A program made the translations under genes and the position numbers. From the IMG/VR virus record IMGVR_UViG_3300000311_000002, positions 44,761-81,828 of that record: 37,068 nt of DNA; one strand, given 5' to 3'. Below the pieces are notes generated by a model. That model was not told where the DNA came from. It was given only the letters and a program-made list of their open reading frames with translations, and did no database searches. Each line of letters begins with the position of its first letter. The stretch's first letter is position 1. The DNA is from a virus. This document shows, in pieces, positions 8,084 through 37,068 of the stretch.

Positions 8084-8097
8084 TAAGGAATTTTAAT

Positions 8098-10725: not shown

Positions 10726-10803
10726 TTTGTTGAATATTACCGAATGGCTTGGTTGTTATTATTTAAACCCAGAGTACTCACTGTAACATTATAGAGGTAA
10801 ATA

Positions 10804-12651: not shown

Positions 12652-12681
12652 TTAAACTATCTAAAATAGAGGTAAGTAAAG

Positions 12682-13359: not shown

Positions 13360-13372
13360 CCAGTGTTGCGTG

Positions 13373-13415
13373 ACTTCACGGGTGGTTAAAAGCTGCCCGT
13401 GAAGTATTTTAACCA
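13373..13415 (+). promoter_or_regulatory. Two interleaved inverted repeats after the tube gene
   Basis: Stem A pairs 13373-13382 (acttcacggg) with 13396-13405 (cccgtgaagt), a perfect 10 bp. Stem B pairs 13383-13391 (tggttaaaa) with 13407-13415 (ttttaacca), a perfect 9 bp. The arms alternate A-B-A-B, so both cannot form fully at once: loops joining them are 0, 4 and 1 base, too short for a full pseudoknot. Stem A followed by TATTTT resembles an intrinsic terminator after the highly expressed sheath and tube genes; stem B would compete with it. The pairing is seen directly; the regulatory role is inferred. Confidence 0.6.
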
Positions 13416-13419
13416 TAGT

Positions 13420-13426
13420 AAGGAGG
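13420..13426 (+). promoter_or_regulatory. Near-perfect Shine-Dalgarno site for the gene at 13437
   Basis: AAGGAGG ends ten bases before the ATG at 13437. It is the strongest ribosome site I noticed in the window and lies just after the competing inverted repeats, which could affect its accessibility. Confidence 0.75.
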
Positions 13427-13436
13427 ATTGTAAACT

Positions 13437-14574: not shown

Positions 14575-14583
14575 CGGATACTA

Positions 14584-18800: not shown

Positions 18801-19336
18801 TGGCTGAAGAAAGAGAAATAATAAATGTAGAGTATAGACTCTATGACTATCTAACGGTAGGAGAATATCTTCATTCTAATATTATAAGAATAGACCATTA
18901 TTTTTCTAAGGAAATTGATGACCGAATAAATATTTCTGATGGACTCGCCGTCTTTACATTAGAAGCAAGATACCCAATAGGTAAACCAAGATCTAATACT
19001 GACACTGTTGGTAGCGTAGCTTTAGAAGTTGCTATACTACCTAGAACGTCAAGATATAAATCTACTTATGTTTACCCTGAGTTAGAAGGTGGGATGGGTA
19101 AGTGGCCGATTTCTGCTGCATCAGTCACTAAAGATGCAACTGACGAATATTTTAGGGTTGAGCTTAGGGAAGTATTTAGATTAGATTTAGTATCTTTTGC
19201 TGCTTATGGGACCCCCGATTATTGGTGGGTTATTGCATTAGCTAATGACATAAGAAATCCGTTTACCAGACCAATTTATAATGAAATTTTAAGAGTCCCA
19301 AGTATAAATAGAATACAGTCCCAGTTGATAAATTAA
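18800..19336 (+). CDS. gp53-like baseplate wedge protein
   Basis: A 178-residue protein starting at an ATG overlapping the previous TAA. The N-terminus carries YRLYDYLTVGEYLHSNIIRI, then beta-rich sequence. The C-terminal signature is YGTPDYWWVIALANDIRNPF followed by an ILRVPSINRIQ end. A 'D-Y-W-W-x-I-x-x-x-N-x-I-x-x-P-F ... (L/I)-x-(I/V)-P' run is characteristic of T4 gp53-type wedge proteins. It sits between the tube initiator and the hub, as expected for the baseplate cluster. The extra N-terminal beta-rich part is longer than the motif requires and its role is unknown. Confidence 0.75.
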   Translation: MAEEREIINVEYRLYDYLTVGEYLHSNIIRIDHYFSKEIDDRINISDGLAVFTLEARYPIGKPRSNTDTVGSVALEVAILPRTSRYKSTYVYPELEGGMGKWPISAASVTKDATDEYFRVELREVFRLDLVSFAAYGTPDYWWVIALANDIRNPFTRPIYNEILRVPSINRIQSQLIN

Positions 19337-19337
19337 A

Positions 19338-21422: not shown

Positions 21423-22104
21423 AGTATTAGTTTCTGGTAAAATCCCTTATAGATTTCAACTTGCAAAGAACGTTGGTGCTCTGTTATCCCCGGCAAGGAA
21501 TGCAAAGCTTCATGTGTATTGGTCTGGGACATCTAGTGAAGTACAATTATCGGCTGATTCTGAAGGCAATGTAGAGTTATCTCAACCTCTTACTCTAGAC
21601 GAAGATGGGGAAGCTTTTTTTTATTTAGAACCAGGACTAATAAGTTTAGTTATTGAACTCGACGATTCCACGAGTGAAACAATAGAAGATGCTGTATTAG
21701 GTGGGACAGTCACGGTAAATTATACTGGTGATTTCATGATGACAAATACAGCTACTGTAGCCCTTAGTGGTTCTACTGGTACGGCAAGTAATATTATTCC
21801 TGCTGGGGCGTTGGTTATAGCAGTTTTAGTTGAAGTAATGGAAGAAGTTAGTGGTATCAGTACTATTCCTAATGTTAGTGGGTTTAACGTTGGGTTAAGC
21901 GATGATACTAATGCTTGGTCATATCAACCTATTAGTACTGCTTTAGCAACTAAAACAACTTCTGGTGATTTTGCTGTGAAAAGTCCAATTTATATAGGTA
22001 GTGAAGCCAGAGACGTCATATTATCTGCTTATCCAGAAGGGTCTATTTTTGATGAGGGTAGTGTAAAGGTTGTAGTTAGATATATTATGCAACAGGTTTC
22101 TTAA
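21415..22104 (+). CDS. Baseplate/fibre adaptor protein, putative
   Basis: A 229-residue protein; I chose the ATG at 21415, overlapping the end of the hub gene and preceded by AAGGA. The first half has GKIPYRFQLAKNVGALLSPA and VELSQPLTLDEDGEAFFYLE, a pattern I associate with phage fibre N-terminal domains ('...P-L-x-(A/L)-D-x-x-G-x-x-x-x-Y-L-x-P-G'), which dock fibres to the baseplate. The second half is a beta domain with NTATVALSGSTGTASNIIPA and VVVRYIMQQVS, as in other phage virion proteins. It has no signal peptide and no Thr/Pro linker, unlike the four genes after it. Probable adaptor between baseplate and the receptor-binding set; inferred. Confidence 0.55.
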   Translation: MSEVLVSGKIPYRFQLAKNVGALLSPARNAKLHVYWSGTSSEVQLSADSEGNVELSQPLTLDEDGEAFFYLEPGLISLVIELDDSTSETIEDAVLGGTVTVNYTGDFMMTNTATVALSGSTGTASNIIPAGALVIAVLVEVMEEVSGISTIPNVSGFNVGLSDDTNAWSYQPISTALATKTTSGDFAVKSPIYIGSEARDVILSAYPEGSIFDEGSVKVVVRYIMQQVS

Positions 22105-22114
22105 CGGATTAATT

Positions 22115-22897
22115 ATGTTAAAATTATTTTATATATTTTTATTTGTTTTTATTACTGTTTTTGTTGCTGGGGCTCAAACTACTCCATCAACTAATACCCC
22201 TACAGCAACAGTTACGCTGACTCGTACTATTACGAAGACACCAACACCAACTAGAACTTCCGCTATTTGTTTTGAAGAAGGAACGTCTGTATGGAGAGAA
22301 GGATGCAATGTCCCTTCGGCTGGGTCTAGGCTAATTTCTATAAATGATAAAGATGCTAAATTTATTCCTCCTCCGTGGAAGTTTGCTCCTTTTGATGCTT
22401 CTATTATGGATGTCGATGGAACAGTCTGTAAAATAGTAACAGTTCAAAACTTTTTAGGTATTTTTGATCGTGGTATTTATTGTACTAAAGGGGGTGGAGA
22501 CGGAATAATTCAATCTAGTACATTAATACCATTAGCAGGAGTTGCTGGTAGTACAGTAGACTTCTTAATCAATTGGACTTTCGCTGGAACTTATACAGGT
22601 AATTGGGAAGGGTTAGCTTCTTGTTTTTGTAGACAAACAACGGGAACTTCGGTTCTGTCTAGCTCAGATTTTCCAGACCTACCCTACGCGAAAGAAATTG
22701 GCACTCATATACAAGGAACTACTAGCCCAGTAGATAAATTAATGTTAGTATCCGGGGTTCAGTGTGGTGGTGATTGTTCTATACCTGCGTCAAAGTTATT
22801 TTGGAAGATAGAATTTTATGGAAGTAGTACAACTGCCGATTCTGAGCATATGTATTTAACTGACGTTTCTATTTTATTGCCATCAACTGGGAACTAG
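22115..22897 (+). CDS. Exported protein with Thr/Pro linker and cysteine-rich domain (copy 1)
   Basis: A 260-residue protein. A Sec-type signal peptide (K3, a long hydrophobic core, AGA before Q21) is followed by a Thr/Pro linker at residues 22-49, then one domain (50-260). The domain begins CFEEGTSVWREGCNVP and has eight cysteines in all. The same domain ends the next gene's product, where it starts CFDEGTSVWRHNCNIP. C105 and C123 here become Ala and Phe in that copy, a coupled loss that suggests a disulphide. No lipobox, anchor or lectin fold is recognised. It lies in the receptor-binding position of a tail operon, yet appears to be exported; function unknown. Confidence 0.65.
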   Translation: MLKLFYIFLFVFITVFVAGAQTTPSTNTPTATVTLTRTITKTPTPTRTSAICFEEGTSVWREGCNVPSAGSRLISINDKDAKFIPPPWKFAPFDASIMDVDGTVCKIVTVQNFLGIFDRGIYCTKGGGDGIIQSSTLIPLAGVAGSTVDFLINWTFAGTYTGNWEGLASCFCRQTTGTSVLSSSDFPDLPYAKEIGTHIQGTTSPVDKLMLVSGVQCGGDCSIPASKLFWKIEFYGSSTTADSEHMYLTDVSILLPSTGN

Positions 22898-22907
22898 ATA
22901 AAATTTT

Positions 22908-24959
22908 ATGAAATTTTTAAAATACCTGTTTTTGTGCTTGGGTATTATTGGATTATTTTATAATACTTCTCAAGCTGCTGTTAGTATTTTATACCCAGAA
23001 AAAATGGCTAGGGCCGATGCTGAATCAATGTGCCAAAATGAAACAGGGGGTGACGTAGTAAGTCATTGGTGTCTCGGGAGAGATTTCCAATATGATAGTG
23101 GCCCTTTAGATGAGTGTTCTTCTTATGTACCATTAGTAAATTATTGTGGGGCGGTAGGGAGATCTGTAAACTATTTATATTTTTCTTCTACAGAAATTAA
23201 TAATGCTTTACAAAATGCGGCAGATAAAAGTTTGATACATGCTGAATTACGAATAACTACAACTGACTGTTCTTGGTCAAACATATCTAGCGGGGGCCAC
23301 GAATGGAAAACCAGCTATTTAATTCATACTACGCTAATGGAACAAGACTGGGTTCCCCCAACTAGTTACAATTGTTCTACTGATTTAGATCCAACTAATT
23401 CTGATGCCGATTGTGTTACAACATGGGGAGGGGGATTATCTAGCCCCTCTGCTATAGGTGATTGGTATCCTGGGAAGTTACTTTATTCTGGAACATATAC
23501 TTGTGTGGAAGCAACCCCTATACCCGGAACTTCAACATCGGTTCCGTATACAAAGGTTCTTGATGCTACTGACGACGTTATTAGATGGTCAAATTGTTCT
23601 GTATGTGATAATCCACACACTAATTTCGGGTGGAAGTTTGAGACTCAGCACGTATCTGGTTCCGAATTATTAGTTAATGCTGCTAGAGTTAGTAATGTAG
23701 TTTTATTGATTAGCGATGGGGTTCCAACCCCAACGGCTACTATAGAACCTACAAGGACTGTTACTTCAACTCGTACTCAGACTGGAACTTATACGGCAAC
23801 AAGCACAGTTACGGCAACCTCAACTGCAACAAACACAGCAACAGCAACTAGTACCTCCACTGCAACTTCAACCAGGACTTTTACTTCAACTCCTACTGTA
23901 ACCAGGACCCCGACATATACTTTTACGGCTACTAATACTCCTATATTTACTTTTACTAGTACGGCTACTAGGACTAGTACAAGAACCTATACAAGTACAA
24001 ATACCCCGACTAGATCACCAACGTCAACAAATACATCTACCCCTACTTCCACAGCAACTAGTACCCCATCTAGTACAGGCACTTCAACAGCTACTCGTAC
24101 TAAAACCCCAAGTAGGACCGCAACATCTACTCTTACTAGAACAGCAACTCGGACAGGAACCAGAACATTTACACCGATAAGAACGCCGACTTTTACTTTA
24201 ACTCCTCCTCCAACTAACACCAGGACGTTGAGAGCTACTAGGACTAAAACTCCTTTACCATCACCGACCTCTGCTGTTTGTTTTGACGAAGGAACCTCGG
24301 TGTGGAGACACAATTGTAATATACCTGCATCGGGGATGGAACTATATGGAGATGAGGAAGGAAAAGCAAAATTTCGTCTACCTCCTCCTATATCTATAGC
24401 GTTTGATGCTACTACAATGGATGTTGATGGTTCAGGAGCGAGGTCAATAGTACCATTAAATCTTTTTGGAATTTTAGACGAGGGGGTTTCGTTTTCTAGT
24501 TCAGAACTTGCTTATGGCTCTATCCAAGGTTCTATTATGGTAAATAATTATTCTGGTGGCCCAATTAATTTTACTGTTGGGTCGGTTTACACTGGGTTAG
24601 TCTATGGGAATTGGGTTGGGGCCATTGGGTGTGATTGTGTTAACCTACGACCAGTAACACCATTGCCTACACCGGTTAGTTTAAATTTTGATAATTTTAA
24701 CCCTACGTCTAATTGGCTTGGGGATAACTTTATCCCATTGACTGTGACTATTCCAATTACTTTTGTCACCCCTTATATAGATATAAAAGTTGTCGGTGAT
24801 ATTGATTGTGATAGAGGATGCTCTCCTAATAATGGGCCAATCAAAATTCGGTGGGCAATTTATTATGATGGGGGTCGTACTAATATTACCCCAAATAGAT
24901 TTTATATAACAGATTTATTAATGTCATATAGGGCTTTAGATTCCAACGGTGTTAAATGA
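22908..24959 (+). CDS. Exported protein with long Thr/Pro linker, two cysteine-rich domains
   Basis: A 683-residue protein. A signal peptide (MKFLKYLFLCLGIIGLF, then SQA as predicted cleavage, about residue 23) is followed by an N-terminal domain (about 25-270) with ten cysteines and two Trp-rich segments. A Thr/Pro/Ser/Arg linker of about 180 residues (272-454) comes next, then a C-terminal domain (about 455-683) homologous to that of the preceding gene. The N-terminal domain is not recognised. The C-terminal copy has six cysteines, lacking the pair C105/C123 of its paralogue (A511 and F529 here). Total cysteines are even (16). There is no catalytic motif. Probable exported adhesin or fibre component by architecture only. 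Its stop overlaps the next start (ATGA). Confidence 0.65.
   Translation: MKFLKYLFLCLGIIGLFYNTSQAAVSILYPEKMARADAESMCQNETGGDVVSHWCLGRDFQYDSGPLDECSSYVPLVNYCGAVGRSVNYLYFSSTEINNALQNAADKSLIHAELRITTTDCSWSNISSGGHEWKTSYLIHTTLMEQDWVPPTSYNCSTDLDPTNSDADCVTTWGGGLSSPSAIGDWYPGKLLYSGTYTCVEATPIPGTSTSVPYTKVLDATDDVIRWSNCSVCDNPHTNFGWKFETQHVSGSELLVNAARVSNVVLLISDGVPTPTATIEPTRTVTSTRTQTGTYTATSTVTATSTATNTATATSTSTATSTRTFTSTPTVTRTPTYTFTATNTPIFTFTSTATRTSTRTYTSTNTPTRSPTSTNTSTPTSTATSTPSSTGTSTATRTKTPSRTATSTLTRTATRTGTRTFTPIRTPTFTLTPPPTNTRTLRATRTKTPLPSPTSAVCFDEGTSVWRHNCNIPASGMELYGDEEGKAKFRLPPPISIAFDATTMDVDGSGARSIVPLNLFGILDEGVSFSSSELAYGSIQGSIMVNNYSGGPINFTVGSVYTGLVYGNWVGAIGCDCVNLRPVTPLPTPVSLNFDNFNPTSNWLGDNFIPLTVTIPITFVTPYIDIKVVGDIDCDRGCSPNNGPIKIRWAIYYDGGRTNITPNRFYITDLLMSYRALDSNGVK
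23721..24272 (+). repeat. Thr/Pro-rich linker repeat region
   Basis: About 180 codons in which Thr alternates with Pro, Ser, Ala, Arg or other residues. At the DNA level it is a degenerate repeat of ACN-rich codons, about 45% G+C by a 60-base hand count, higher than the surrounding gene because of codon content. It encodes an extended, probably unstructured stalk between two folded domains. Antisense open frames here are by-products of the repeat. Confidence 0.8.
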
Positions 24960-27900
24960 GAAAGTTTATCTTATTTCTATTAGTTTTATTAATTCCTATT
25001 AAAGTTAACGCGGTAAACTGTTCTTCGTATGAACAGTTAATAAAAAGTAGTCCTTCATTACCAATATCTTTTTTTAGGATGAAAACTGATAGCCCAACAG
25101 GAGTACTAATAGATGATACCCCACAACAATTTAATGGTTCTTACACTTCTTATTGTTCTTATGGGGAGCCCTCTTTAATTGTCGATACGGAATCTAATGC
25201 TGGGGCAATCGCTTCAAGTTCCACTTCTTGTTACGCTAGTTTGAATGGTGAGATAGTCCCCGCAAACGGCACAGACGGGTTTTCTCTAGAAGTTTGGGTG
25301 AAATGGTCTTATGATTTAACTTTATCAATGGAAAAATCTGTTATTGCTGTTCCTTGGGTTCCTAACGTCTTTTCGTATCCTGGTGGGGGTGGGGGTGCAG
25401 CGGCTTTAGCAATAGTTGGTCCTGATGACAAGCTGCGTTGTTGGATGGGGGTTTACTATTCCGTAGATCCAAATGTTGGTGGGAGATCTGTTACCTCTAA
25501 TGGTTCTTACAATGATGGAAATCCTCATTACGTAGCATGTGTTTATGAACCCCTAGATGTTGGTAGAGAATTTAAAATATATGTTGATGGTAACTTAGAT
25601 AATTATGTACCACAAAATCTTGAATTGCAACAAAGTGCTTCTAGTTCTCCTAGAGCATTTTGTTTTTCTGGTAGTAGCGGAGACCCGGTTAGCTGTGCGG
25701 GTAGTAGTACTAAATTAACTATAGATGAGATAGTAGCTTATAGAAGACCTATGGGGGCTTCTGAAATATACGATCACTATGACGCGGGTAAAAATGGTTG
25801 CACTACACAACCAACTTGGACTCCTTATCCAACAAATACAGTAACTTTAGTGCCTACAGAAACTATTGAACCTACTATTACTGAAACTCCAACTCCTTCA
25901 GTTACTAATACACCAATAGATACTTACACAAAGGCCCCAACTTCAACGGTTACTCTATCACCTACTATAACTATGACGCCAACGGATACACCTATTTATA
26001 CAGCAACCCCCTTAATTCCATATACACCTACCAATTCTCCAACGGTAACTTTGTCACCAACTAGGACAGCGACGAGTACTATAACTTCCACAAAGACCTA
26101 TATATTTACTGCAACTTCAACCCCAACTATAACTTTGTCACCCGTAATGACACAGACGCCAACTAGTACCATAAGCCCAACCCCAACTAGAACTCCTTAT
26201 GGTGGGCTACCAGGGGTACACGTAGACAATCTAGGTAGTCACGTAACTGAGGTAGATGATTTTAATTGTTCGGATTGGGGAACAACTACAAACGCAGAAT
26301 CTTGCGATGACACCGGGTCTACTGTACTAATTAAATACCCTTGTTTAATGCCAGATATGCTAAGAACAAGTTACTTAGATGTTGACAGTTCAAGAATTCC
26401 AGATACTGCGGAGATTTTATGGATCAGGGTAAATGTAACTAGAAAGTTACAAGAGTACCCACCGGACTGCTTTTATACAGAAGAAAATTCACAGCTCTGC
26501 GTAACTGATAGTATTTATTATTTTAATACTTCCCAAGGATCTTTTTCACCTGATGCTGACTCCAAAATAATAACACAGAAAGTCGAGGGTTCATACTACC
26601 CAGAACTTGAGTATTCTACATTTAGTGTTACCTACGATGTCTCTGGGTGGGGGTTAGTTGGTTCTGACATAACTGGGGATACTAATTTTGGTATAGATTA
26701 TAATGTTTCTTTATTAACCCCTTATTATATGATCCCGTTTTATGCTGGTGGTCAAGCAACTATGGATGTTGACTGTATAACAATGGATATCGGATATAGT
26801 GAATGTAATGATGATTCCGATTGTGTTGGTAGCTCCTGCATTGATCATTCGTGTGTTGGGCCAGCTTTGACTCCTACTCCATTTCCGTTGGTACCTGCTT
26901 TTAGTGATTGGAAATGTAGAGCTTCTTTTGATATAGATAATACGAGTAGGGGAGAACTAACCGACTATCCAGTTGGGTTAAAGTTAGATTTTTCCATTAT
27001 AGACTATGATAATTCACTTGATGATGGGGCGGACGTTATAGTAGTAGACTCAGACAATTCTACTGTTTTAAGTCATGAAATAGAAACTTGGGATAAAGTT
27101 AACAAAAACTCGATGGTGTGGGTTAAAGTACCAACTATTGAGGCTGCTGCTACTCATAGAATTTATTTGTATTATTGTAAATGTGGAGCTTCAACAACAT
27201 CAGACCCACCGAGCGTGTGGGATTCAGATTTTGATGCTGTTTATCATTTAGATAAAAATCCATTTAACTACCATAATTGTGGTAATGACACAGGAAATGA
27301 GTGTGATTCAACTCGTAATGTGAGCCTTGGTGGTTCTGGGAGTTACCATAATAGTCTGTACCCATTAGTTGCTGGTACATGGGGGGTGGTAGATTTAATA
27401 GGGGATAATGAAGCTGTATGCCCATTCGGTAGATGTATAGATTTTACTAACACAAGTAGGCCAGGTACCAGTATTAGTGCTTTTAAAAGTGGGGGCTTTG
27501 TTAATGCTGAGGGTATTGTAGACCCATCTACTCTTACTGGTTTTACTGTTGAAGCTGTATTTAAGAGGGACACACGAGCATCAGCGGGGGTTGGTGGGTT
27601 AGTCGCTCAGCATATAACAGGTTTGGCCTCTACAGTATATAATAGTTATTTGTATTTAGACAGTAGTTATAAATTATCAGCAAATTTAATACCAAAAACC
27701 CCTACCCCCGTTGTGGTAACTGGGGCTACGGCTGTTAACAACACGGATTATCATTATGCCGTAACAACATTCGATGGTACTGATATTCGAGTATATTTAG
27801 ACGGGTCGCTTTATGCTGGGCCTACTTCAGTTCAACCTCTTCGTAGTAGTACAGAGCCTTTTTATATTGGTAGAGCTACGGCTGGGGGTCTTACTGGGTA

Positions 27901-30586
27901 TATGGATGGTAGAGTAGATGAGATAAGATTTAGTAGTTCTGTTAGATCCGACGATTATATATCAGCAACTAATGCTAATATGAACGGTACTCTGGTGAGT
28001 ACGGTTGAGTCCTATTCAGTGAACCCGGTTTGCTTTACCCCAACACCAACACCAACAAAAACCCCTACGCCTGCGTGCTATGATAATTATGATGATGTAA
28101 CTTGGAATAAGCATATAGCTACGAATGCTTACTATAAATTCGATGAGCCAGATGTTGATTACTGTAATATTTCATTAGAAACTGATGTTTGCAATGAAGC
28201 TGTTTCTCCTTCTGGTGGTATTGAGTATAATGGGAAAATAAACTATTTTGGTTCTGGCTATATATGGAATTTTCATCAAACTGGGGCTATTGATGGGGAA
28301 AGAGGGTGGGCGGTGTCAGCTTCTAGTAGACCTTACGCATACCTTAACCAGAATTTTGGTGGAACAGATAGAAACACTATCAGCCTTTGGGTTAAAGCGT
28401 CTGGGTGGGCCACCCAAAAGAAAGTTAGTATAGTGGAAAGGACATCCAATTTTGACTTATGGATAGGAACAAGTGTCGATGGGTGCTCAGCTAGCGGTGG
28501 ATGTTTTGTATGTAAATTTACTAATGCCTGGGACGGTACTGTATTAGCGTCAGTAGTTGGATCAACTAGTCATACAGATGGGAATTGGCATCATGTTGTG
28601 TGCAGATTAGACAATGATGAGAATTTATACATAAACAATGACGGTACCATAAGTTTGTGGGTCGATGGACAAATAGAATCTTACTCGTATTTGCCTTCAG
28701 GTAGAATTACTTATGCTACCGGTGGTTGTACATTGTTTGGTAATAATGGGGGTTTATCGGGGTCTGGTGATTATCCAGATTCAGGCCATATAGTTGGAAT
28801 AGATAATTTAACATTTTACAGTGGTGCTTTGTCTGATGATGATATAAAAGAAATGTATTATGCTGGGACCCATAAATGTAGGTCCGATATAAATTTTCAA
28901 AATACTTGTTATTATGCAACAGGACATGATAATTTTTATATAGACAACTCTTCGTTCAATGATACTGCTTTTGCTATAGTGAAAGGTGATAATGAACAAA
29001 CTTCTGTGTGGGCGGTAAAACCAAACAGTACGTCTTGGGATAACAATATTTCTTATAGAGGAAGTGGTATTACCCCTGCCATTGTTCCTACTCCAACCCC
29101 AACAGGAACACAAAGTACAAGGTTGTATTTTACTGACAATACCCCTGCTTATACTCCCTCCTCTTTAATGGAAACATGGAGTACACCTACTGGATATTTA
29201 AATAGGGAACTCTCTTCTACTAAAGCTGGGTCAATTTCTTCTTTAACTTTATCTTCTTTACCTGCTGGTAACAAATTATTTTATAGATTTATTTCTCAAC
29301 CCTTAGCAGAAGATATAATATTTAATTATGGAGACGCTATAACCGTTATGTTAGGGGCTCAGGAATCTAACGCTTTGGCTAATTATGGCCCTGCGTATTC
29401 AGCAAAAATATTGGTTGGTGACACGACTACGGTTAGGTGTTCTTTACCATCGTTTCAGTACTCTATAACACCGGAGTTTAATACTTCCCCGATGTCAGTA
29501 ACTTCTAGTGCATCTTTCGTATTTTTTGATGATATATGCAAAGCCTATTTTGGTGATAGACTGGTGGTTGAGGTTGGTGCAAGAGTCGGGGTAGCTGGGT
29601 ATAATGGGACTATGTGGACAGGAGGGACCTCTGGTGATTTAGATAGGGCAACTCAATATGACCCAACTGTATATACAGGATGGGTGGAATTTAGTAAAAA
29701 TATAGCTTTTGGTACTTTACATGATCCACCGAGTTATCTTACCGGAGGAATAAAGGCTCTTGGGACAAAAGGGATTCTATTAGGTAATGATCCTACAGTA
29801 AACTGGAATGAATATGATAGATATTGTGCATATATGTGGAATGATTCAGATGACATGTCAGTTTCTTATTATGTAGGGAGTGGTGGGGATAGAAGCATCA
29901 GTCTTCCTTTTTCTGCTGGAGTAATTATTGTTGGTGGAGACGGAGTAGACCCATATGTGAAAACCTTAGACATGCCTAGTTCCGGCTCGTATCCTTGGGG
30001 GACCGCAGGGGCTATTTCTTACGGTAAAATAAAATACTTAGGAGCATCTAGTTTTACTGTTGATGCAAGTATGAACGTAAATGGCATAACCTATCATTAT
30101 GTGGCATGGAAAAACGGAGCCACTGGGTTTATACATGGAACGTACGATGGTAGTAATTCTGGTGGGCAGACCCGAACAACAACCTGTTCACCAACTTTTA
30201 TATATGTCAAACCTTCAGATGCTTCTGCCGGTGTAATGAAAGGATATGACACTCCATATGGATTTTCTCAGAGACTTGACGCTAGTGTTGATGAAGGAGG
30301 AATATCTACTTTGGGTTATGATGCAGGAACACTAAATTTTACTGTGGATAGTTCTTTAGATGTGTCGGGAACTAGTTATTATTGGTATGGGTTTTGTGCT
30401 GGTGGAAATGACTTTTTGGATTTAACAAATAGTTCAAATATTCTACGACTTACCCGTGACCCAGGCTACTTATCTAAAACTAGTGTTAGAAAAGGATCTT
30501 GGAGTGGGACGAATAGTTATATGACATTAAAAGGAAGCCCTAATAAATTTGGTCCTGTTGGGTCAAAGTCAGTTACAACCCCGTGA
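24956..30586 (+). CDS. Very large exported multidomain lectin-like protein
   Basis: An 1876-residue protein, the largest here. A signal peptide (MRKFILFLLVLLIPIKVNA) precedes: a LamG/ConA-like domain (about 75-280, with FSLEVWVKW, FKIYVDGNL, DEIVAYRR); a Thr/Pro linker (281-414); a cysteine-containing beta domain (420-625); a DUF2341-like domain running into a second LamG (651-1018; YPVGLKLDF, IYLYYCK, IRVYLDGSL, GRVDEIRFSS); a short linker; a third LamG (1042-1308; SLWVKAS, WHHVVCRLD, ISLWVDGQI); a fibre-type beta domain (about 1382-1585); and a C-terminal region with two copies of a 'F-T-V-D-x-S-(M/L)-(N/D)-V' module. LamG folds usually bind glycans. Several receptor-binding modules on one exported chain suggest a surface-glycan adhesin or extended fibre. 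Family calls are by eye. Confidence 0.7.
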   Translation: MRKFILFLLVLLIPIKVNAVNCSSYEQLIKSSPSLPISFFRMKTDSPTGVLIDDTPQQFNGSYTSYCSYGEPSLIVDTESNAGAIASSSTSCYASLNGEIVPANGTDGFSLEVWVKWSYDLTLSMEKSVIAVPWVPNVFSYPGGGGGAAALAIVGPDDKLRCWMGVYYSVDPNVGGRSVTSNGSYNDGNPHYVACVYEPLDVGREFKIYVDGNLDNYVPQNLELQQSASSSPRAFCFSGSSGDPVSCAGSSTKLTIDEIVAYRRPMGASEIYDHYDAGKNGCTTQPTWTPYPTNTVTLVPTETIEPTITETPTPSVTNTPIDTYTKAPTSTVTLSPTITMTPTDTPIYTATPLIPYTPTNSPTVTLSPTRTATSTITSTKTYIFTATSTPTITLSPVMTQTPTSTISPTPTRTPYGGLPGVHVDNLGSHVTEVDDFNCSDWGTTTNAESCDDTGSTVLIKYPCLMPDMLRTSYLDVDSSRIPDTAEILWIRVNVTRKLQEYPPDCFYTEENSQLCVTDSIYYFNTSQGSFSPDADSKIITQKVEGSYYPELEYSTFSVTYDVSGWGLVGSDITGDTNFGIDYNVSLLTPYYMIPFYAGGQATMDVDCITMDIGYSECNDDSDCVGSSCIDHSCVGPALTPTPFPLVPAFSDWKCRASFDIDNTSRGELTDYPVGLKLDFSIIDYDNSLDDGADVIVVDSDNSTVLSHEIETWDKVNKNSMVWVKVPTIEAAATHRIYLYYCKCGASTTSDPPSVWDSDFDAVYHLDKNPFNYHNCGNDTGNECDSTRNVSLGGSGSYHNSLYPLVAGTWGVVDLIGDNEAVCPFGRCIDFTNTSRPGTSISAFKSGGFVNAEGIVDPSTLTGFTVEAVFKRDTRASAGVGGLVAQHITGLASTVYNSYLYLDSSYKLSANLIPKTPTPVVVTGATAVNNTDYHYAVTTFDGTDIRVYLDGSLYAGPTSVQPLRSSTEPFYIGRATAGGLTGYMDGRVDEIRFSSSVRSDDYISATNANMNGTLVSTVESYSVNPVCFTPTPTPTKTPTPACYDNYDDVTWNKHIATNAYYKFDEPDVDYCNISLETDVCNEAVSPSGGIEYNGKINYFGSGYIWNFHQTGAIDGERGWAVSASSRPYAYLNQNFGGTDRNTISLWVKASGWATQKKVSIVERTSNFDLWIGTSVDGCSASGGCFVCKFTNAWDGTVLASVVGSTSHTDGNWHHVVCRLDNDENLYINNDGTISLWVDGQIESYSYLPSGRITYATGGCTLFGNNGGLSGSGDYPDSGHIVGIDNLTFYSGALSDDDIKEMYYAGTHKCRSDINFQNTCYYATGHDNFYIDNSSFNDTAFAIVKGDNEQTSVWAVKPNSTSWDNNISYRGSGITPAIVPTPTPTGTQSTRLYFTDNTPAYTPSSLMETWSTPTGYLNRELSSTKAGSISSLTLSSLPAGNKLFYRFISQPLAEDIIFNYGDAITVMLGAQESNALANYGPAYSAKILVGDTTTVRCSLPSFQYSITPEFNTSPMSVTSSASFVFFDDICKAYFGDRLVVEVGARVGVAGYNGTMWTGGTSGDLDRATQYDPTVYTGWVEFSKNIAFGTLHDPPSYLTGGIKALGTKGILLGNDPTVNWNEYDRYCAYMWNDSDDMSVSYYVGSGGDRSISLPFSAGVIIVGGDGVDPYVKTLDMPSSGSYPWGTAGAISYGKIKYLGASSFTVDASMNVNGITYHYVAWKNGATGFIHGTYDGSNSGGQTRTTTCSPTFIYVKPSDASAGVMKGYDTPYGFSQRLDASVDEGGISTLGYDAGTLNFTVDSSLDVSGTSYYWYGFCAGGNDFLDLTNSSNILRLTRDPGYLSKTSVRKGSWSGTNSYMTLKGSPNKFGPVGSKSVTTP
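25800..26199 (+). repeat. Thr/Pro-rich linker repeat region
   Basis: About 130 codons alternating Thr with Pro, Ile, Ser, Tyr and others (for example TVTLSPTITMTPTDTPIYTA). It joins the first LamG domain to the rest of the large exported protein. It is the same class of linker as at 23721, with less Arg and more Ile and Pro, so composition varies between genes although the alternating-Thr design is kept. Confidence 0.75.
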
Positions 30587-30591
30587 GTATT

Positions 30592-33546
30592 ATGTTTAAA
30601 CTAATTAAATATTTATACATTTGTTTATTTATAGTTTTAATTTCAACAAAAGTATTTGGGGATGACCCACCTACTGATACGCCAACTGTTACTGAAACCC
30701 CAACGGTTCCTACTAATACTCCTACAGATACTCCGACACCCTGTCAAGATGGAAATGACGATTATGTAACTCTGCTATTACAGGGAGAAGGGTCAGACGG
30801 TTCTACCTATTTTTATGACAGTTCCTCTTATCACAAGGAGACTACAGGGGTATCAAATGCTCATATTAGTATAGGCCAGAAAAAGTTTGGCGATAGTAGC
30901 GTTTATGTCTCTGCTTCAGGTGGTATAGAGTGGGGTTCTAGTAGTGATTTTGCTTTTGGTACTGGGCCATTCACAGTAGACTTTTGGCTCTATGTACCGA
31001 ATCAAGAGATAGACATGGGTTTGCCTTATGTCGATGTTTTTTATTATAATGTGGACTCAAATACTAATAGTGTCTATGCGATAGGTATTGTATATAATTA
31101 CGCTTATTTATTTTTTTCTACCGGTACTTCCATAGAGGAGGAAGGGGGGATAAAAATTGGGGAAATGATAAGTGGCCTTACTGTCGATACGTGGTACCAT
31201 ATAGCCTTGATTGGAGATGGTGGGATTGACGGTAGTAGGAATATGAAATTATATTTAGATGGTGTTCAAGTTGGGGACACTTATAATTATGACTATAATC
31301 TTACTGGGACCAATACCTCCGTGGGTTCTTTTTATATAGATAATTATCCTACTAATTATGTCTCTAGTGCGTTTATGATAGATGATCTAAGGGTTTCCAA
31401 AGGGGTATCTAGGTGGTCAAGTGATTTTTCCCCACCAGAATGTGCTTATTCAGTACCTACTATTACCCCTACTTTTAATACTTATACACCGACTGTCACT
31501 TCAACTCCAACTAATACAGGTACTATTACTAATACTCCAACTATTACTAATACTCCTCTTCAAACGTATACAGCAACACCTGTCAGTAGACAAATATTTA
31601 TGGTAGCTTCAGACCCTTTGAATTCTGTTATTATAAGTAGTGCTGGTCAAGTTAGGTGGGTGGTAGGGTCTAAAGTAGACAGTTTGGCAGGAGCTTTTAA
31701 TAATAAAGGACATTATTATTTAGTTAGTAGTACGAATACTTTGAGATGTGTTTTATTAGATAATTATGTGGAAACTAGCGATTCATGGAGTAGTACAGTT
31801 GGGGTTGGCGAGGCAGTCCCCTTACAAACAATGTCACCATGTACGTTTCCCCTAACTATTAATAAGGGAGATCGGTTTATAGCAGAGCTTGGGTATAAAG
31901 CAGGTAATTCGTTGTCTACTTATACTGGAACATCGTGGTTTGGGGGGACTGGAGATGACCTGGTTATAACGTCTGATGGAGATACAGGAGTACTAACAGA
32001 TGTTGGTAACATAGAGTTAAATTTTACCGGTGACATAACTCCAATATCAACCCCAACCCCAACCCCAGCGGTTAGTTGCGGGTATCCAACAGTAGTTTTA
32101 AGGGATGGGCCAACTTTATATTGGAGACTTGATGAACCTTCTGGTACTAGTGCTGCTGATTCTTCTGGAAATAGTTATACTGGAACAGCTTCAGATTCAT
32201 CAATATTGGTGGGATCGACGGGAGCACTAAATGGGCCAGACGGGTACTCAGCTAAATTTGACGGTTCTGGGTATATACGATCTTTAGCAATTCCGCCTAT
32301 TACTAATATGTTTGCATTTGAATTTTGGATTCAGATTGACGATTCAAGTACAAGAAACGAATTATTATATTATAGTGGCGGGGCTTTTATAATCCATTAC
32401 GATTACATTTATGGTGATAGAAAACTTACGGTAGAGTTTGGTAATTTAGTAAATAATGATACAGAGATTTATACAATAATCCCAATTGAAGATAGTGATT
32501 GGCATCATATAGTTTATTCTTATGATGGGCATACTTTTAATAGTTATAAAGACGGAGTACTAGTGAATTCTTATGCTGCTGATTTTATACTGAATCAAGG
32601 TGGGGATAGTTTGGTAACTATAGGTAATACGGATTTTTATGGCTCCTTAGACGAGGTAGCTGTTTATGTGGGATCTTACTTAACTGAATACCAGGTGTTG
32701 TCCCATTATGATTGGGGTAGATCTAATTGTGTAACCCCTGTACCCACGTTCACCGGGACAGTTCCTCCTTCTGCTTATACCCCTACTATAACTGGTACTG
32801 CCACACCGACAGTTCCTTATACACCAACACCTGAGGTTACTTGTGCTGGGACGGTGGTTGTTAGCGGTCCTGCCCCTTCTGGCCATTGTAGTCAATCGTA
32901 CAGTACTATTGGTTCATTGTCGTGGAGTCCTTGGGTTAAACTAGGGCAATGCAGTGACTGGAGATGTGACGAGGATAGTGGTGTTTATAGTATTTCTTCA
33001 CAACTTAATAAAGACAGTATAACTAAAACTTTAAGGTCATATAATTTTGACTTTCAGCCTCAAGAACTTCCAAGTACTTATGATATTAGGGGAGTAAGAG
33101 TTTTGGTTAGAAAAGGAGTTCATTTTTCAACTGCTGGAGACGCGAATATTAGAGATTATAGTGCTAAATTAGGGGTGTTGTACGGGGACGGAACCACAGA
33201 AGTTTTTATGCCTCAGGACAAAGCAAATTTAGATAGTGACTGGTGCAAAACATCTAATAAATGTGAGTGGGGAGTTTATGGTGGGTATGATGATGAATGG
33301 GGAGGTAATATTCCTGTAGATAAACTAAGAGATATATCATTCGACTATCAAGTCACTAATCCTGGGGATTGCAGTGGCTCTTGCCCAGAAGCAGTTGTCG
33401 GGTGTGTTGTGATGGAAATTTGCTACATTGTAGGGGCCAATACTCCTACACCAAGTGTTACTAGGACACCTACAGTAACTAAAACTAGAACTCCAATAAC
33501 TCCTTTACCAGTAAGCGTAAGAGGAAACCCAATAGTTTTTCAATAG
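30592..33546 (+). CDS. Exported multidomain LamG protein with four Thr/Pro linkers
   Basis: A 984-residue protein; I prefer the ATG at 30592 over the GTG at 30583, which would add MSI before the signal peptide. The signal peptide is MFKLIKYLYICLFIVLISTK with predicted cleavage near VFG-DD. Then come: a Thr/Pro linker (about 25-52); LamG 1 (52-285; FTVDFWLYVP, MKLYLDGVQVG, IDDLRVSKGV); a linker; a fibre-type beta domain (332-481) of the same kind as in the preceding gene; LamG 2 (497-710; LYWRLDEPSG, FEFWIQID, WHHIVYSYDG, GSLDEVAVYVG); a linker; a cysteine-rich beta domain (750-950); and a short C-terminal linker. The domains look drawn from the same pool as the gene before. Probable exported glycan-binding protein; its place in virion or host envelope is unknown. 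Confidence 0.7.
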   Translation: MFKLIKYLYICLFIVLISTKVFGDDPPTDTPTVTETPTVPTNTPTDTPTPCQDGNDDYVTLLLQGEGSDGSTYFYDSSSYHKETTGVSNAHISIGQKKFGDSSVYVSASGGIEWGSSSDFAFGTGPFTVDFWLYVPNQEIDMGLPYVDVFYYNVDSNTNSVYAIGIVYNYAYLFFSTGTSIEEEGGIKIGEMISGLTVDTWYHIALIGDGGIDGSRNMKLYLDGVQVGDTYNYDYNLTGTNTSVGSFYIDNYPTNYVSSAFMIDDLRVSKGVSRWSSDFSPPECAYSVPTITPTFNTYTPTVTSTPTNTGTITNTPTITNTPLQTYTATPVSRQIFMVASDPLNSVIISSAGQVRWVVGSKVDSLAGAFNNKGHYYLVSSTNTLRCVLLDNYVETSDSWSSTVGVGEAVPLQTMSPCTFPLTINKGDRFIAELGYKAGNSLSTYTGTSWFGGTGDDLVITSDGDTGVLTDVGNIELNFTGDITPISTPTPTPAVSCGYPTVVLRDGPTLYWRLDEPSGTSAADSSGNSYTGTASDSSILVGSTGALNGPDGYSAKFDGSGYIRSLAIPPITNMFAFEFWIQIDDSSTRNELLYYSGGAFIIHYDYIYGDRKLTVEFGNLVNNDTEIYTIIPIEDSDWHHIVYSYDGHTFNSYKDGVLVNSYAADFILNQGGDSLVTIGNTDFYGSLDEVAVYVGSYLTEYQVLSHYDWGRSNCVTPVPTFTGTVPPSAYTPTITGTATPTVPYTPTPEVTCAGTVVVSGPAPSGHCSQSYSTIGSLSWSPWVKLGQCSDWRCDEDSGVYSISSQLNKDSITKTLRSYNFDFQPQELPSTYDIRGVRVLVRKGVHFSTAGDANIRDYSAKLGVLYGDGTTEVFMPQDKANLDSDWCKTSNKCEWGVYGGYDDEWGGNIPVDKLRDISFDYQVTNPGDCSGSCPEAVVGCVVMEICYIVGANTPTPSVTRTPTVTKTRTPITPLPVSVRGNPIVFQ
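31448..31590 (+). repeat. Thr/Pro-rich linker repeat region
   Basis: About 45 codons of alternating Thr with Pro, Asn, Ile and Ser (TPTNTGTITNTPTITNTP) between the first LamG and the fibre-type domain. Shorter linkers of the same kind lie near 30663-30744, 32731-32838 and 33440-33520 in the same gene. Confidence 0.7.
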
Positions 33547-33554
33547 GACTATAA

Positions 33555-34715
33555 ATGACTTTTTCATTATTAGATTCTTCCTTATTACCAAATAAAGATG
33601 AGATGGTATCAAAAGATACTTATCTAGGTCTTTATGAAGGGGATGTAGAAGACGTTAGAGATCCATATAATTTGGGTAGGATAAGGGTAAGAATACCAAT
33701 AATTCATACACCTAAACAAGGGACGCCAGGTAAGAATAGAAAAATCACTAAGACAAAAGAATTACCTTGGGCATTACCTTGTTTTCAACCTGGGACTTTT
33801 TCTCCTCCTAGTGTTGGCGATTCAGTGTGGGTATTATTTAGACGTGGAAACCCAGACTACCCTGTATATTTAGGAACTTGGTATGGAGTATTAAAAAACA
33901 AAAAAATTAAGGGTGGTCAAATAGGAGACTCGTCACCTGAAAAACCTGACTCAACTTTGCTCGGTGGGTTGTCAATGAAGAGTAATGTTAGTGAGGAAGT
34001 TCCTAGTAGTTCTAATGCTTCTTCTTATTATGTAAATCCAGGCAACGAATCACCGGAAGAGTCTTATAAACTTAAATCTACCCTAGACCCAACAGTTAAA
34101 GTTATAGCTTCAACTCCTAAGGGTCACACTATATATACAGTAGACGATGATGGAAAGGAAAAATTAGTTATTGTGGATAGATTCGGCCAAACTATTGAAA
34201 TGGTATGCCCGGTCTCAGGATCAGAAAACAAGGGCAACAAGTCTCGTAGGGGGACTAAAGAGGCCGCTGGTAGTGGGGCTTTACCAGTAGACAAGGCTGC
34301 TGGTGGACAAACTTATATAAGAATAATTGATGCTAACGGACAGTTTTTAAAACTTACAACGTCAAATTCTGGGGGTAAAAAAATAGAATTAAATGGACCC
34401 GATTCCGGTTTTATTAATATTGAGGAAGACGGAAAGTTAATAACTTTAAAAAGTAATAAAAATGGGGAGATTAGTATTGATGATAATGTAGTTTGTGTTA
34501 GTTCTGCCGATGCGAAAATGACTTTAGACAATTTGGGTATTGTAACTATAGAAAGTGTTGTTGGATGTAGAGCTACTTTGGATAATATAGGTAATGTGAT
34601 AGTTACTAATCCTGCTGGTGGAAGTATTTCTTTATTAGTAACTGGGGATTTTAATATTATGTCTGCTGGCGGAGCTATAATTAGTTCTTTGGGGCCTATA
34701 ATAAACATAAATTAG
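33555..34715 (+). CDS. Baseplate spike with OB-fold (gp5/VgrG-like)
   Basis: A 386-residue protein. The OB-fold lies at about residues 24-115, with GLYEGDVEDVRDPYNLGRIR, VRIPIIHTP, PWALPCFQPG, PSVGDSVWVLFRRG and GNPDYPVYLGTWYG, the classic gp5/VgrG-type core ('G-x-V-x-x-x-x-D-P-x-x-L-G-R-(I/V)-(R/K)-V'). A Ser/Asn/Gly-rich connector follows, then repetitive strands ending LLVTGDFNIMSAGG and SSLGPIININ, which should form the triple-stranded beta-helix needle. There is no lysozyme domain, unlike T4 gp5; the cell-wall enzyme is instead on the hub at 19338. There is no signal peptide. The PAAR gene is directly downstream, giving a spike plus tip pair. Confidence 0.88.
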   Translation: MTFSLLDSSLLPNKDEMVSKDTYLGLYEGDVEDVRDPYNLGRIRVRIPIIHTPKQGTPGKNRKITKTKELPWALPCFQPGTFSPPSVGDSVWVLFRRGNPDYPVYLGTWYGVLKNKKIKGGQIGDSSPEKPDSTLLGGLSMKSNVSEEVPSSSNASSYYVNPGNESPEESYKLKSTLDPTVKVIASTPKGHTIYTVDDDGKEKLVIVDRFGQTIEMVCPVSGSENKGNKSRRGTKEAAGSGALPVDKAAGGQTYIRIIDANGQFLKLTTSNSGGKKIELNGPDSGFINIEEDGKLITLKSNKNGEISIDDNVVCVSSADAKMTLDNLGIVTIESVVGCRATLDNIGNVIVTNPAGGSISLLVTGDFNIMSAGGAIISSLGPIININ

Positions 34716-34732
34716 TATATGGAGGTTGTGCT

Positions 34733-35023
34733 ATGGGTTCTGGTGGTAAAATAGCTAGGGATGGGGATGTCTGCGGTGGTGGGACTTTAATAGCCTCCCA
34801 ACAATTAATCAGAATTAACGGTAAGCCAGTAATATGCGTTGATGATAAGGTTTCCCCACATCCCCCTTATGATGGGCTTCATTCATCAGCAAAAATGGCA
34901 GAGGGATCATCTAATCTATTTGTTTTGGGTAAAAAAGTATGCAGGATGGGGGATTTAGCTTCTTGTGGGCATCAAATAACTGATGGGAGCCCGACTACTT
35001 TTAATTTTAGTCCTAGTACGTAA
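34733..35023 (+). CDS. PAAR-domain spike tip protein
   Basis: A 96-residue protein that caps the spike as a sharp metal-bound cone. A strong GGAGGT site precedes the ATG. The PAAR-like layout is: GKIARDGDVC at the start, INGKPVICVDD, SPHPP with H43, KMAEGSSNLFVLGKKVCRMGD in two pieces, then SCGHQITDGSPTTF with C78 and H80. H43, C78 and H80 are good candidates for the metal site, with C35 or H50 as a possible fourth ligand. Family and position next to the spike agree. It lacks any fused effector. Confidence 0.9.
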   Translation: MGSGGKIARDGDVCGGGTLIASQQLIRINGKPVICVDDKVSPHPPYDGLHSSAKMAEGSSNLFVLGKKVCRMGDLASCGHQITDGSPTTFNFSPST

Positions 35024-35032
35024 GTATATTTA

Positions 35033-35677
35033 ATGAAGTTACTAAAATTTTTGCCCGTTCTAATTATTTTGCAAGCTGGTGCTTCTTATGCTGTTGCTAC
35101 TAAAACTAAAACACCAACTCCCACAGCAACTTTTACTAAAACACCAACTCCACTGTCTACAATAACCCCAATGGAATGCGAGGGCGATAACAGGGCAGAT
35201 GGGTATATTACTAATAATATAGGGCTATGCATACCTGAAGTTAATAATAAATTTTGGGCCTTAAATTTAAATAATAACTTTGAACGAATAGATAAGGTAT
35301 TTGCTCCTCAAGTTGGGCATTCACATACGTTACAAGTCCCAAGTACCTATGCTATTAGTGGAACATTACCGCAAGGATCTTATACTTTAAGATGGTACGT
35401 GCCTGTTCCTAATGGTCAAAAGGTAACTTTAGTTTCTTCAATGGTTTATTGTAATTCTGGAAGTGGAGTTTTAACTTTACAACAAGCTAAATTTACTGAT
35501 CCAAATACTTTTTTTTCTATTACTGGGTGGTCTTCAATACCTGTTTCTACTAATCCTATAATATTTGACGGACCTAGAATAAGTGTTGGTCCTAGAGATT
35601 CTTTTAGACTTTTAGTAAGTTCAGGATCTATTACAGATTTGTCATTTACATTTTTTATGGAATATAAGATACACTAA
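35033..35677 (+). CDS. Exported protein with Thr/Pro linker and one beta domain
   Basis: A 214-residue protein. The signal peptide (MKLLKFLPVLIILQAGASYA) has predicted cleavage after SYA at residue 20. A short linker TKTKTPTPTATFTKTPTP follows to about residue 46, then a beta-rich domain (about 48-214) with MECEGDNRADGY, SHTLQVPSTYAISGTLPQGSY and a final FFMEYKIH strand. Three cysteines are present in the mature part. The N-terminal third of the domain has NNKFWALNLNNNFERID, a helix-like segment. No catalytic or lectin motif is recognised. It resembles a minimal member of the exported set, placed after the PAAR gene, so the set straddles the spike genes. Confidence 0.6.
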   Translation: MKLLKFLPVLIILQAGASYAVATKTKTPTPTATFTKTPTPLSTITPMECEGDNRADGYITNNIGLCIPEVNNKFWALNLNNNFERIDKVFAPQVGHSHTLQVPSTYAISGTLPQGSYTLRWYVPVPNGQKVTLVSSMVYCNSGSGVLTLQQAKFTDPNTFFSITGWSSIPVSTNPIIFDGPRISVGPRDSFRLLVSSGSITDLSFTFFMEYKIH

Positions 35678-35695
35678 TAGTAGGATAGAGTAATA

Positions 35696-37068
35696 ATGAG
35701 GTTGTTAAAAATATTATTTTTCCTTTGTCTTAGTGTGTTTTTTACTGCACTTGAATCTAAAGGGCAGACCTCAACCACAACAATCACCAGCACACCGACT
35801 CAGACGCAAACGATTACATCCACACCAACCATTACTTCAACACCGACGCTTCCCGAAGAACTCCCAGCATCCTTTGGCTGCTACGATGGTGATGGAGCAG
35901 CAAGCCAAGCGGTTGCACTAGGATTCCAACCCGCTGTTGTTTTTGTAGGCAAGAAGGGCACATCCGCCGCGCACAACATATGGTGGTCTTCCGATACGAT
36001 GGGTTCCGGCTATGCGTGCCAGACGTATTACGTGTCTGGATTCCTCTGCCAACAGTCTTACATCACATTGAGTGGGACCGGATTCACAGCAGGCAGCAAT
36101 CTGAATGCCTCGGGATCAACTTATTGCTACTACGGTTTCGCGAAAGCGTGGCAGGTGCTCGCCACAGGCTCATACGTTGGAAACGGCACTAACCCTCGTA
36201 ATATCACAGGCGTTGGATTTGACCCGGATCTAGTGTGGTCATCGGTATACTACACGAATTCCGGTGCTTCCGCACAAGGAATATATTTCCGTACCACTGA
36301 CATGACAGGGGCTAGGTCTTGTGGGATTAGCTCAAACACAAGCGGCGGCAACTGCCCAAACAATTACGTCACGGCACTAATCACGGACGGGTTCAGTGTC
36401 ACCAACTTGAATGTTAATAACGCTCACTACAATTACGTTGCTATGAAGAAGAATGCTGCCATCTCACGTTGGCTCTGGACTACAACGTGGAGCGGTAATG
36501 CTTCTGCCACCCCCCGGCCTATCTCGCTTGGAAATCAAGCTCGTATGGTAATGGTCAGTGGGGCGGGAAACTACGGTTATTGTGCTGGAATGCGGCATGA
36601 CCAGGGGAGCATGTCCGTGAATCCGTACATCCAAAAGACTACTCTTGCGGACAAGGAAGACGACATCACGATGGGGGACACCGATGGGATTACCATTCAG
36701 GGTGAATGCAACAGCCAGTTTCTCACTAGTTACGCATGGGGTTTGTACGAGCCGAGTCATACGCCAACGGTGACGCCGACCGCAACTGCGACGGACACTC
36801 CAACCAACACTGCGACATCCACCCACACGGCAACACCAACGGACACGGCGACCGACACTCCCACGAACACACCGACATCCACGCACACGGCAAGCAGTAC
36901 GCCAACCGATACGCGGACAGACATTCCGACGCCGACCGACACCGCCACGCAGACTGGGACCGCAACGGAAACCGCAACCGCTACAGTACCAACTGACACT
37001 CCAACCCAGACTGCCACCAGCACAGTGCCGACGAACACGCCGACTCCGGTCACAACCGACACGCCAAC
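35696..37068 (+). CDS. Exported, GC-rich chimeric protein with Thr/Pro linkers, 3'-truncated
   Basis: An open frame from ATG 35696 to the window end (457 codons, no stop), so it is partial. It begins [20 protein letters not shown], a signal peptide with predicted cleavage near SKG-Q at residue 23. A Thr/Pro/Gln/Ile linker follows to about residue 58, then a domain (about 60-350) with repeated 'G-F-(T/S)-x-x-x-x-L-N-x-x-x-x-x-Y-x-Y' modules ([15 protein letters not shown] and [17 protein letters not shown]) and ending near [15 protein letters not shown], then a second Asp-rich Thr/Pro linker to the edge. The same modules occur in the C-terminal part of the gene at 24956. G+C rises from about 25% to over 50% at the end of the signal peptide, indicating a fused foreign piece. 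Confidence 0.65.
35757..35770 (+). other. Base-composition breakpoint
   Basis: Hand counts of consecutive 60-base lines give 15/60 G+C at 35641-35700, 15/60 at 35701-35760, 31/60 at 35761-35820 and 34/60 at 36481-36540. The switch coincides with the end of the signal-peptide coding region (codon 24 starts at 35765). The reading frame is unbroken across it. Confidence 0.75.
36755..37068 (+). repeat. Thr/Pro/Asp-rich linker repeat, GC-rich version
   Basis: At least 104 codons alternating Thr with Asp, Pro, Ala, Asn and Ser, running to the window edge. It is about 60% G+C (36/60 at 36781-36840), against about 45% for the equivalent linker at 24001-24060, so the difference is not due to linker amino-acid composition alone. 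Several antisense frames here are repeat by-products. Confidence 0.75.

Follow-up and report, generated by a model that had tools for sequence, protein, structure and literature searches.

Predicted Sec signal peptides on lectin-like and other tail-region proteins of an uncultured contractile-tailed phage

Introduction

Tailed-phage virions are taught to assemble in the cytoplasm, and the locus analysed here raises the question of what a tail operon is doing with a run of genes whose products appear to be addressed to the Sec pathway. The window, i.e. the whole stretch of 37,068 nucleotides that was analysed, comprises bases 44761-81828 of a linear 81,828-base IMG/VR record (IMGVR_UViG_3300000311_000002; hereafter G000, with L007 a locus in it). 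A first-pass annotation, made from the letters of the window, had described six genes with signal peptides and alternating-Thr linkers and had proposed that they encode an exported modular adhesin system of lectin-like proteins.

Filamentous phage coat proteins pass the host export machinery before assembly and are thus virion proteins that use host export; these phages differ, however, in that assembly proceeds by extrusion, and they are unrelated to tailed phages. A signal peptide is also used by phage endolysins such as the fOg44 lysin (PMC12571629), but these are lysis enzymes whereas the signal-peptide genes of the window encode structural-type proteins. No description of a set of signal-peptide-bearing tail proteins was found among the open-licence papers listed.

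Methods

Signal peptides were called with a rule of our own, not SignalP, that looks for a positive n-region, an uncharged hydrophobic core and a small-X-small cleavage site; the cut-off of 3.9 was chosen once scores had been seen. In the shuffle control, residues 2-40 were permuted in 5000 trials per gene. Background ORFs (at least 150 aa) were drawn from the loci of two Thr-X linker pattern scans of viral contigs, with 191 T-linker ORFs left out. Figures from these two scans hold among the matches listed (at least 120 rows each), and in the first scan 16 ORFs open at the 5' end and simple-repeat linkers were left out of the count. The whole-length follow-up covered five of the first ten records, each picked for one gene with signal peptide and linker already seen. 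Genes are named by their start coordinate.

Results and discussion

The tail operon and its signal-peptide genes

The phage of the window is of the contractile-tail type, with family matches to sheath, tube, tape-measure-like, baseplate-wedge-like, gpV spike and PAAR proteins (Table 1), and the same record encodes, ahead of the window, a major head protein of phrog_138, which we take to be of the kind found in T4-like phages (tblastn matches in 2515 phage records, all below 60% identity). The sole match of the sheath query among viral contigs was a 6-kb contig that is 100% identical over the sheath protein; the spike/hub and SLT-domain queries found no relative of the phage there. Genes 18066-37068 all lie on the + strand with intergenic gaps of -8 to 18 nt, and the six signal-peptide genes are tightly packed in the tail operon between the SLT-domain tail protein and the spike (flanking gaps -4 to 18 nt; 24956 starts within the last 4 nt of 22908), which bears out the placement originally proposed. 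These genes do have the N-termini and alternating-Thr stretches attributed to them, and 21415, 33555 and 34733 have neither.

Table 1. Coordinates of the features discussed (SP, signal peptide; T-linker, Thr-X linker; shuffles, trials reaching the observed SP score)
Source	Coordinates	Strand	Feature	Evidence
Window	10804..21422	+	Contractile-tail genes: sheath, tube, tape-measure-like, baseplate wedge-like, SLT-domain tail protein	None SP-positive
Window	21415..22104	+	Gene directly upstream of 22115; no SP, no linker	SP scan, linker scan
Window	22115..22897	+	SP + T-linker + C-terminal domain of ~210 aa common to 22908	SP score 5.01; cut between VAGA and QTTPS; 2/5000 shuffles
Window	22908..24959	+	SP + Cys-rich N-terminal domain (by eye) + T-linker + C-domain as in 22115	SP score 4.27; 42/5000 shuffles
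Window	24956..30586	+	SP + LamG + T-linker + DUF2341; modular giant, 1876 aa	SP score 5.49; 0/5000 shuffles
Window	30592..33546	+	SP + T-linker + LamG + T-linker + LamG; 984 aa	SP score 4.51; 0/5000 shuffles
Window	33555..34715	+	gpV-like spike / baseplate hub; no SP, no linker	Phage_base_V E 2.6e-11; phrog_430 E 5.4e-17
Window	34733..35023	+	PAAR spike-tip protein; no SP, no linker	PAAR_motif E 5.6e-12
Window	35033..35677	+	SP + T-linker + domain with weak tail-fibre-like motif	SP score 4.28; 21/5000 shuffles
Window	35696..37068	+	SP + T-linker + DUF7361/DUF7483-like domains + long T-linker; cut by contig end	SP score 3.96; 24/5000 shuffles
G000	38973		SP + LamG + linker + small C-domain
G000	40150		SP + C-terminal stretch in common with a baseplate protein
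G000	42263		SP + linkers + LamG + small C-domain of 38973
G000	43798		SP + small C-domain of 38973/42263 alone
L268	4229-5377		phrog_399 structural protein with SP	E 1.6e-12
L274	3772-4497		phrog_399 structural protein with SP	E 9e-13
G007	7488, 13992, 61689		Further linker ORFs
G003	14159, 15693		Further linker ORFs
G002	30297, 31381		Further linker ORFs
G005	18976		Further linker ORF

All six N-termini have a K/R n-region, an uncharged h-region and a small-X-small site, that is, a tripartite signal with a site of the SPase I type (6/6 in the rule-based scan); no lipobox was found in any of them, and the mature parts hold no 19-residue stretch above a Kyte-Doolittle value of 1.70. The earlier argument that these are no chance hydrophobic starts withstood both controls: the observed score was reached by 0-42 of 5000 shuffles per gene, and at the background rate (24/1071 viral ORFs at the same cut-off) finding at least six signal-peptide genes among nine has a probability of about 1e-8. 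In the whole record, 12 of the 76 genes checked are positive. Export as such of the signal-peptide proteins is, in our judgement from the sequence, likely.

Two less favourable readings of these N-termini deserve consideration. They might be unused for export, as hydrophobic leaders that stay on in the virion or are cut off by a protease of the phage, which would fit virion membership without extracytoplasmic assembly, export being read here from sequence; yet the signals are complete and tripartite with small-X-small sites seldom matched by shuffles, and we give this reading little credence. An artefact is more improbable still. The detector is home-made, the contigs are uncultured, any hydrophobic start might have been flagged, and misassembly or wrong starts could mislead, one call in record G005 depending on an assumed GTG start. 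Against this, the six are single intact same-strand ORFs with an in-frame stop 0-15 codons upstream (30592 alone shows another possible start, a GTG three codons further upstream), signals recur in at least ten other records, and the rule, run at 3.5 on a cultured-phage control, flagged one CDS in 32, a lysozyme.

Domains, linkers and paralogues

The mature parts are modular. The C-domains of 22115 and 22908 are 30% identical (E 3e-25), following a Thr-X run at aa 26-49 in the former and a long T-linker spanning aa 282-433 in the latter; an AF2 model of this domain (pLDDT 46) was left unused. In Pfam, 24956 matches Laminin_G_3 in three stretches (E 7.9e-30) and DUF2341 (E 8.5e-14), and 30592 matches Laminin_G_3 in two (E 6.4e-22) together with the baseplate wedge subunit family phrog_1469 (E 2.5e-11). 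The motif of 35033, LN.NF..ID..F....GHSH, lies in a protein with a pairwise match over 41 columns to a Rhizobium phage tail fibre, whose E of 0.001 holds for that single comparison; the protein matched nothing in Pfam or PHROG, nor by tblastn against cultured phages. Gene 35696 matches DUF7483 (E 6.7e-10) and, below the cut-off of that Pfam family, DUF7361. The label lectin-like is accordingly apt for 24956 and 30592, both LamG members by Pfam, and not for 22115, 22908 and 35033, which are not LamG members and for which neither Pfam nor PHROG gave a family above cut-off.

Thr-X runs of at least four units occur in all six signal-peptide genes and in none of 18066, 18800, 19338, 21415, 33555 and 34733, and 18 genes further upstream within the window have no run of at least five units. 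Over the 76 genes of the record, runs of at least 12 residues are found in 8 of 12 signal-peptide-positive genes versus 1 of 64 others (Fisher p 2e-7), the lone exception showing, by eye, a membrane segment at its N-terminus. A Cys enrichment (2.00% vs 0.96%) was dropped as proof of export, since T-linker proteins elsewhere that lack a signal peptide are equally Cys-rich (13 with signal vs 74 without, among the matches listed, p = 0.21).

Four more signal-peptide genes lie just upstream of the window. Standing among these is 40851, which lacks a signal peptide and whose match is to a virion structural family. The C-terminal stretch of 40150 matches a baseplate protein of HCTV-2 (E 3e-5) and SilentRX gp34 (E 1e-5), and the baseplate family phrog_20556 at E 0.008. 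The small C-domain of 38973, 42263 and 43798 has a predicted structure with eight strands (mean pLDDT 83) that is, by our reading, a jelly roll, and it resembles small, mostly uncharacterised phage proteins: its 47 BFVD matches at E <=0.001 are mostly unnamed or uncharacterised, many come from tailed phages, one is a named virion structural protein and one a plant satellite-virus coat protein. An alignment of this domain found no relative among viral contigs. A LamG is common to 30592 and 38973, and each paralogue (22115/22908; 30592/38973; 38973/42263/43798) keeps its own signal peptide.

Relatives without the signal

The LamG domains of the record match PHROG baseplate and virion families, LamG/ConA-like PHROGs 1469, 13163 and 24074 being the nearest known, and the LamG of 30592 has tblastn matches in 63 phage records, of which 48 belong to Synechococcus phages. 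Of the eight proteins read from six cultured viruses, six being relatives and two neighbours, none has a signal peptide (0/8) or a linker (0/8). In particular, the LamG/ConA-like proteins of Synechococcus S-SKS1, Rhizobium RHph_TM3_3_9 and Acidovorax ACPWH belong to the same LamG family, some in baseplate families, but all three lack both the T-linker and the signal peptide that 24956 and 30592 carry. These cultured relatives indicate that such domains are normal residents of phage tail regions, the signal being the unusual part. Among the uncultured LamG relatives at ten loci of a LamG-alignment scan, the hydrophobic N-terminus or signal peptide is missing in eight (L271 and L272 look like copies, and L269 has a short Thr-X run); the two loci with signals, L268 and L274, come from one metagenome. 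Searched against PDB sequences, the LamG alignment gave no match.

The first-pass annotation had named homologues without the hydrophobic N-terminus as evidence that would count against it, and such homologues do exist in part, namely the six cultured relatives and eight of ten uncultured ones; because the signals recur in other phages, we read the two observations together as a gain of export and not as an artefact.

Cellular proteins, too, contain LamG and DUF2341 modules, LamG was matched in 5/14 control genomes, and some modules might be of cellular origin, the domains having been compared mainly with viral collections. This bears on a further alternative, that the genes are morons, host-derived surface-protein genes lodged in the tail region for host modification. 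Its precedent is lambda Lom, which PMC12309495 describes as a signal-peptide-bearing outer-membrane protein encoded between the tail spike and the tail fibres, and which resembles the present case as a signal-peptide protein encoded among tail genes. Lom, however, is a single outer-membrane beta-barrel expressed in lysogeny, whereas the window holds a modular fibre/lectin set; Pfam matched no barrel family in the six genes. The multi-gene nature of the set, the fact that the LamG relatives found (in viral collections, the only ones searched) are phage proteins, several in baseplate families, and a consensus scan in which promoter-like (54 vs 57.5 in shuffles) and terminator-like sites (9 vs 13.4) showed no excess over chance make a Lom-type origin rather improbable.

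Recurrence in other uncultured phages

At least ten other uncultured phage records have signal peptides on genes in or near structural regions, and structural genes in the same stretch are backed by family matches in 8 of those 10. A gene with signal peptide and linker stands directly before a portal in G003/L106 (there also after a terminase), G007/L214 and L216, one short ORF before it in G002/L044 and about 3-6 kb before one in G001/L039; in L128 such a gene follows the tail genes GpU and GPD. For G005/L189 and G006/L195 the setting was judged structural by eye only, none of four structural families being matched in G005 and G006. Terminase families were matched in 0/5 records, and the terminases of G001, G002 and G007 were read by eye. 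L216 has three adjacent signal-peptide genes, one of them a linker protein with sub-threshold LamG similarity. The five whole-length records yielded eight further linker ORFs, seven with a signal peptide by the rule and the eighth by way of an assumed GTG start.

Linkers by themselves are a poor guide. Among the matches listed, the two scans gave 98 loci with linker ORFs. Those with at least two such ORFs numbered 27, with a signal peptide on none of the ORFs in 24, on all in two and on some in one (where the odd ORF overlaps a longer one); the other 71 loci had a single linker ORF, with a signal peptide in 16. In the first scan, again among the matches listed, 13 of 87 start-resolved linker proteins have a signal peptide and 74 have none, and several of the 13 (L011, L028, L061, L067, L104) were not placed in phage structural regions. 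The viral-contig T-linker proteins, matched by PHROG 15511, thus resemble the window set in having Thr-X linkers between domains and differ from it in mostly lacking the signal. As most linker loci lack signal peptides, linkers alone do not imply export. The strict co-occurrence of signal and linker claimed for the window therefore stands there and fails elsewhere (24 of 27 multi-linker loci among the matches listed have no signal, and L268 and L274 have signals and no linkers); comparable signal-peptide sets do exist in other uncultured phages, their coupling to linkers not being general.

In G007, four adjacent signal-peptide genes (6937-19439) are followed by one gene and then a GH108 endolysin, and are preceded by three large genes without signal that matched no informative family and that we take, from size and order, to be tail genes. 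One signal-peptide protein (L246 13992-19439, 1815 aa) combines PKD and GDSL-esterase domains with a sub-threshold LamG match and is possibly a surface-polysaccharide esterase; two G007 signal-peptide proteins share domains with 35696 (E 1e-9; the protein at 7488) and with 30592 (E 2e-4). In G002, three adjacent signal-peptide genes directly follow a tail fibre gene without signal. The products of L195 10850 and G007 11995 look like tail fibres by eye, with no match to cultured phages by tblastn and no family match.

Signals on virion-type proteins

In our view, L268 and L274 argue most strongly that the signals mark virion-type proteins, beyond adhesins. Four adjacent genes of L268 have signal peptides. 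They encode the phrog_399 protein, a LamG protein that matches baseplate families, a small protein resembling, by eye, the start of the next one, and a tailspike-like protein of 1005 aa; this last protein matches tail (E 6e-8), tailspike (E 1.6e-7) and tail-fibre PHROGs as well as BcepMigl gp58 (E 1e-9). Both loci have a signal-peptide phrog_399 gene a few genes after the capsid gene, beside which L274 encodes a signal-peptide LamG protein (LamG sub-threshold). None of the six signal-peptide proteins of these loci has a Thr-X run, so that signal and linker are separable. The major head proteins of both loci have no signal peptide, nor do the two cultured relatives of the tailspike-like protein that were read, and the L268 phrog_399 protein, which we would guess to be a neck adaptor, had no tblastn match among cultured phages. 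Signals on tailspike-like and PHROG structural-family proteins make an exported adhesin system, as first proposed, too narrow a description, although its Sec-like signals are upheld.

Operon position, signal peptides, modular domains, a partial kinship with phage tails and recurrence in other phages can be read from the DNA itself, and together they suggest that some tailed phages may send tail parts out of the cytoplasm. The six genes and the four upstream would then encode late proteins, related to those of virion tails and baseplates, that have gained Sec signal peptides. Their products would be translated together with the tail genes, presumably late, exported through Sec, cleaved, and folded outside the cytoplasm; most probably they would serve as tail appendages (fibres of lectin type), fitted to virions that are otherwise complete, either in the periplasm or once lysis opens the envelope, with the Thr-rich linkers as flexible, possibly glycosylated spacers. 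Since sheath, tube, tape measure, spike and PAAR protein have no signal peptide, the tail core is presumably cytoplasmic and a late-joining route must be assumed. The reading we prefer, with a confidence somewhat short of even, is that late virion-type appendages leave by Sec and probably encounter the virions in the periplasm or during lysis. A bolder form, in which Sec exports fibres, tailspikes and even the head-region phrog_399 protein for attachment in the periplasm or at lysis, capsid and tail core being made inside and the appendages gaining disulfides and surface glycosylation, is conceivable but doubtful.

The chief rival to the virion-joining model is that these proteins are secreted adhesins that never enter the virion: late lectins, retained on the infected cell or free in the lysate, that mask receptors or exclude superinfection, so that progeny avoid debris. 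Signal peptides on predicted soluble mature parts would suit it, as would binding-type modules (LamG here, PKD and GDSL in the G007 protein). A bare linker opens the mature protein in four of the six, without a recognised virion-attachment domain, and resembles a surface stalk. The ordinary tail fibre without signal in G002 also favours it, the adjacent signal-peptide proteins not being needed there as the primary fibre. The tail-operon position, the tailspike-like and structural-family proteins of L268 and L274, which have no clear role as free adhesins, and the lack of a lipobox (the sole anchor type sought) weigh against it, and on balance we consider it unlikely.

If the recurrent set of signal-peptide fibres, tailspikes and structural proteins is real, it would imply either an extracytoplasmic assembly step in Caudoviricetes or secreted phage lectins that act during or after infection. 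Phage structural genes of this kind could, we suspect, pass as host contamination in annotation.

Other features

A dockerin-type protein, 55% identical between copies, is common to G000 (L007 14636-15151) and G001 (51136-51960; L039 3631-4455), the two matching Dockerin_1 at E 2e-6 and, just below cut-off, 2e-4; the G001 copy has a clear signal peptide, and the hydrophobic start of the G000 copy is not called by the rule. Its alignment gave two weak dockerin matches among genome contigs (42% over ~62 residues; Calditrichaeota and a Bacteroidetes MAG), too weak to name a host. L007 also encodes a 562-aa signal-peptide protein with sub-threshold PQQ-propeller similarity (5056-6744), a small exported-looking protein with an N-terminal hydrophobic segment (7742-8272) and the only tRNA found in the record, a tRNA-Leu (CAA) at 6744-6816. 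The signal-peptide-positive gene 50909 of G000 looks more like a membrane protein, and window positions 1-1911 hold a gene end that by eye resembles ribonucleotide reductase. Among viral contigs, L074, L093, L126 and L200 form a different group of signal-peptide proteins, with Thr runs and the common motif QD[LV]C...Q.Q.FG.
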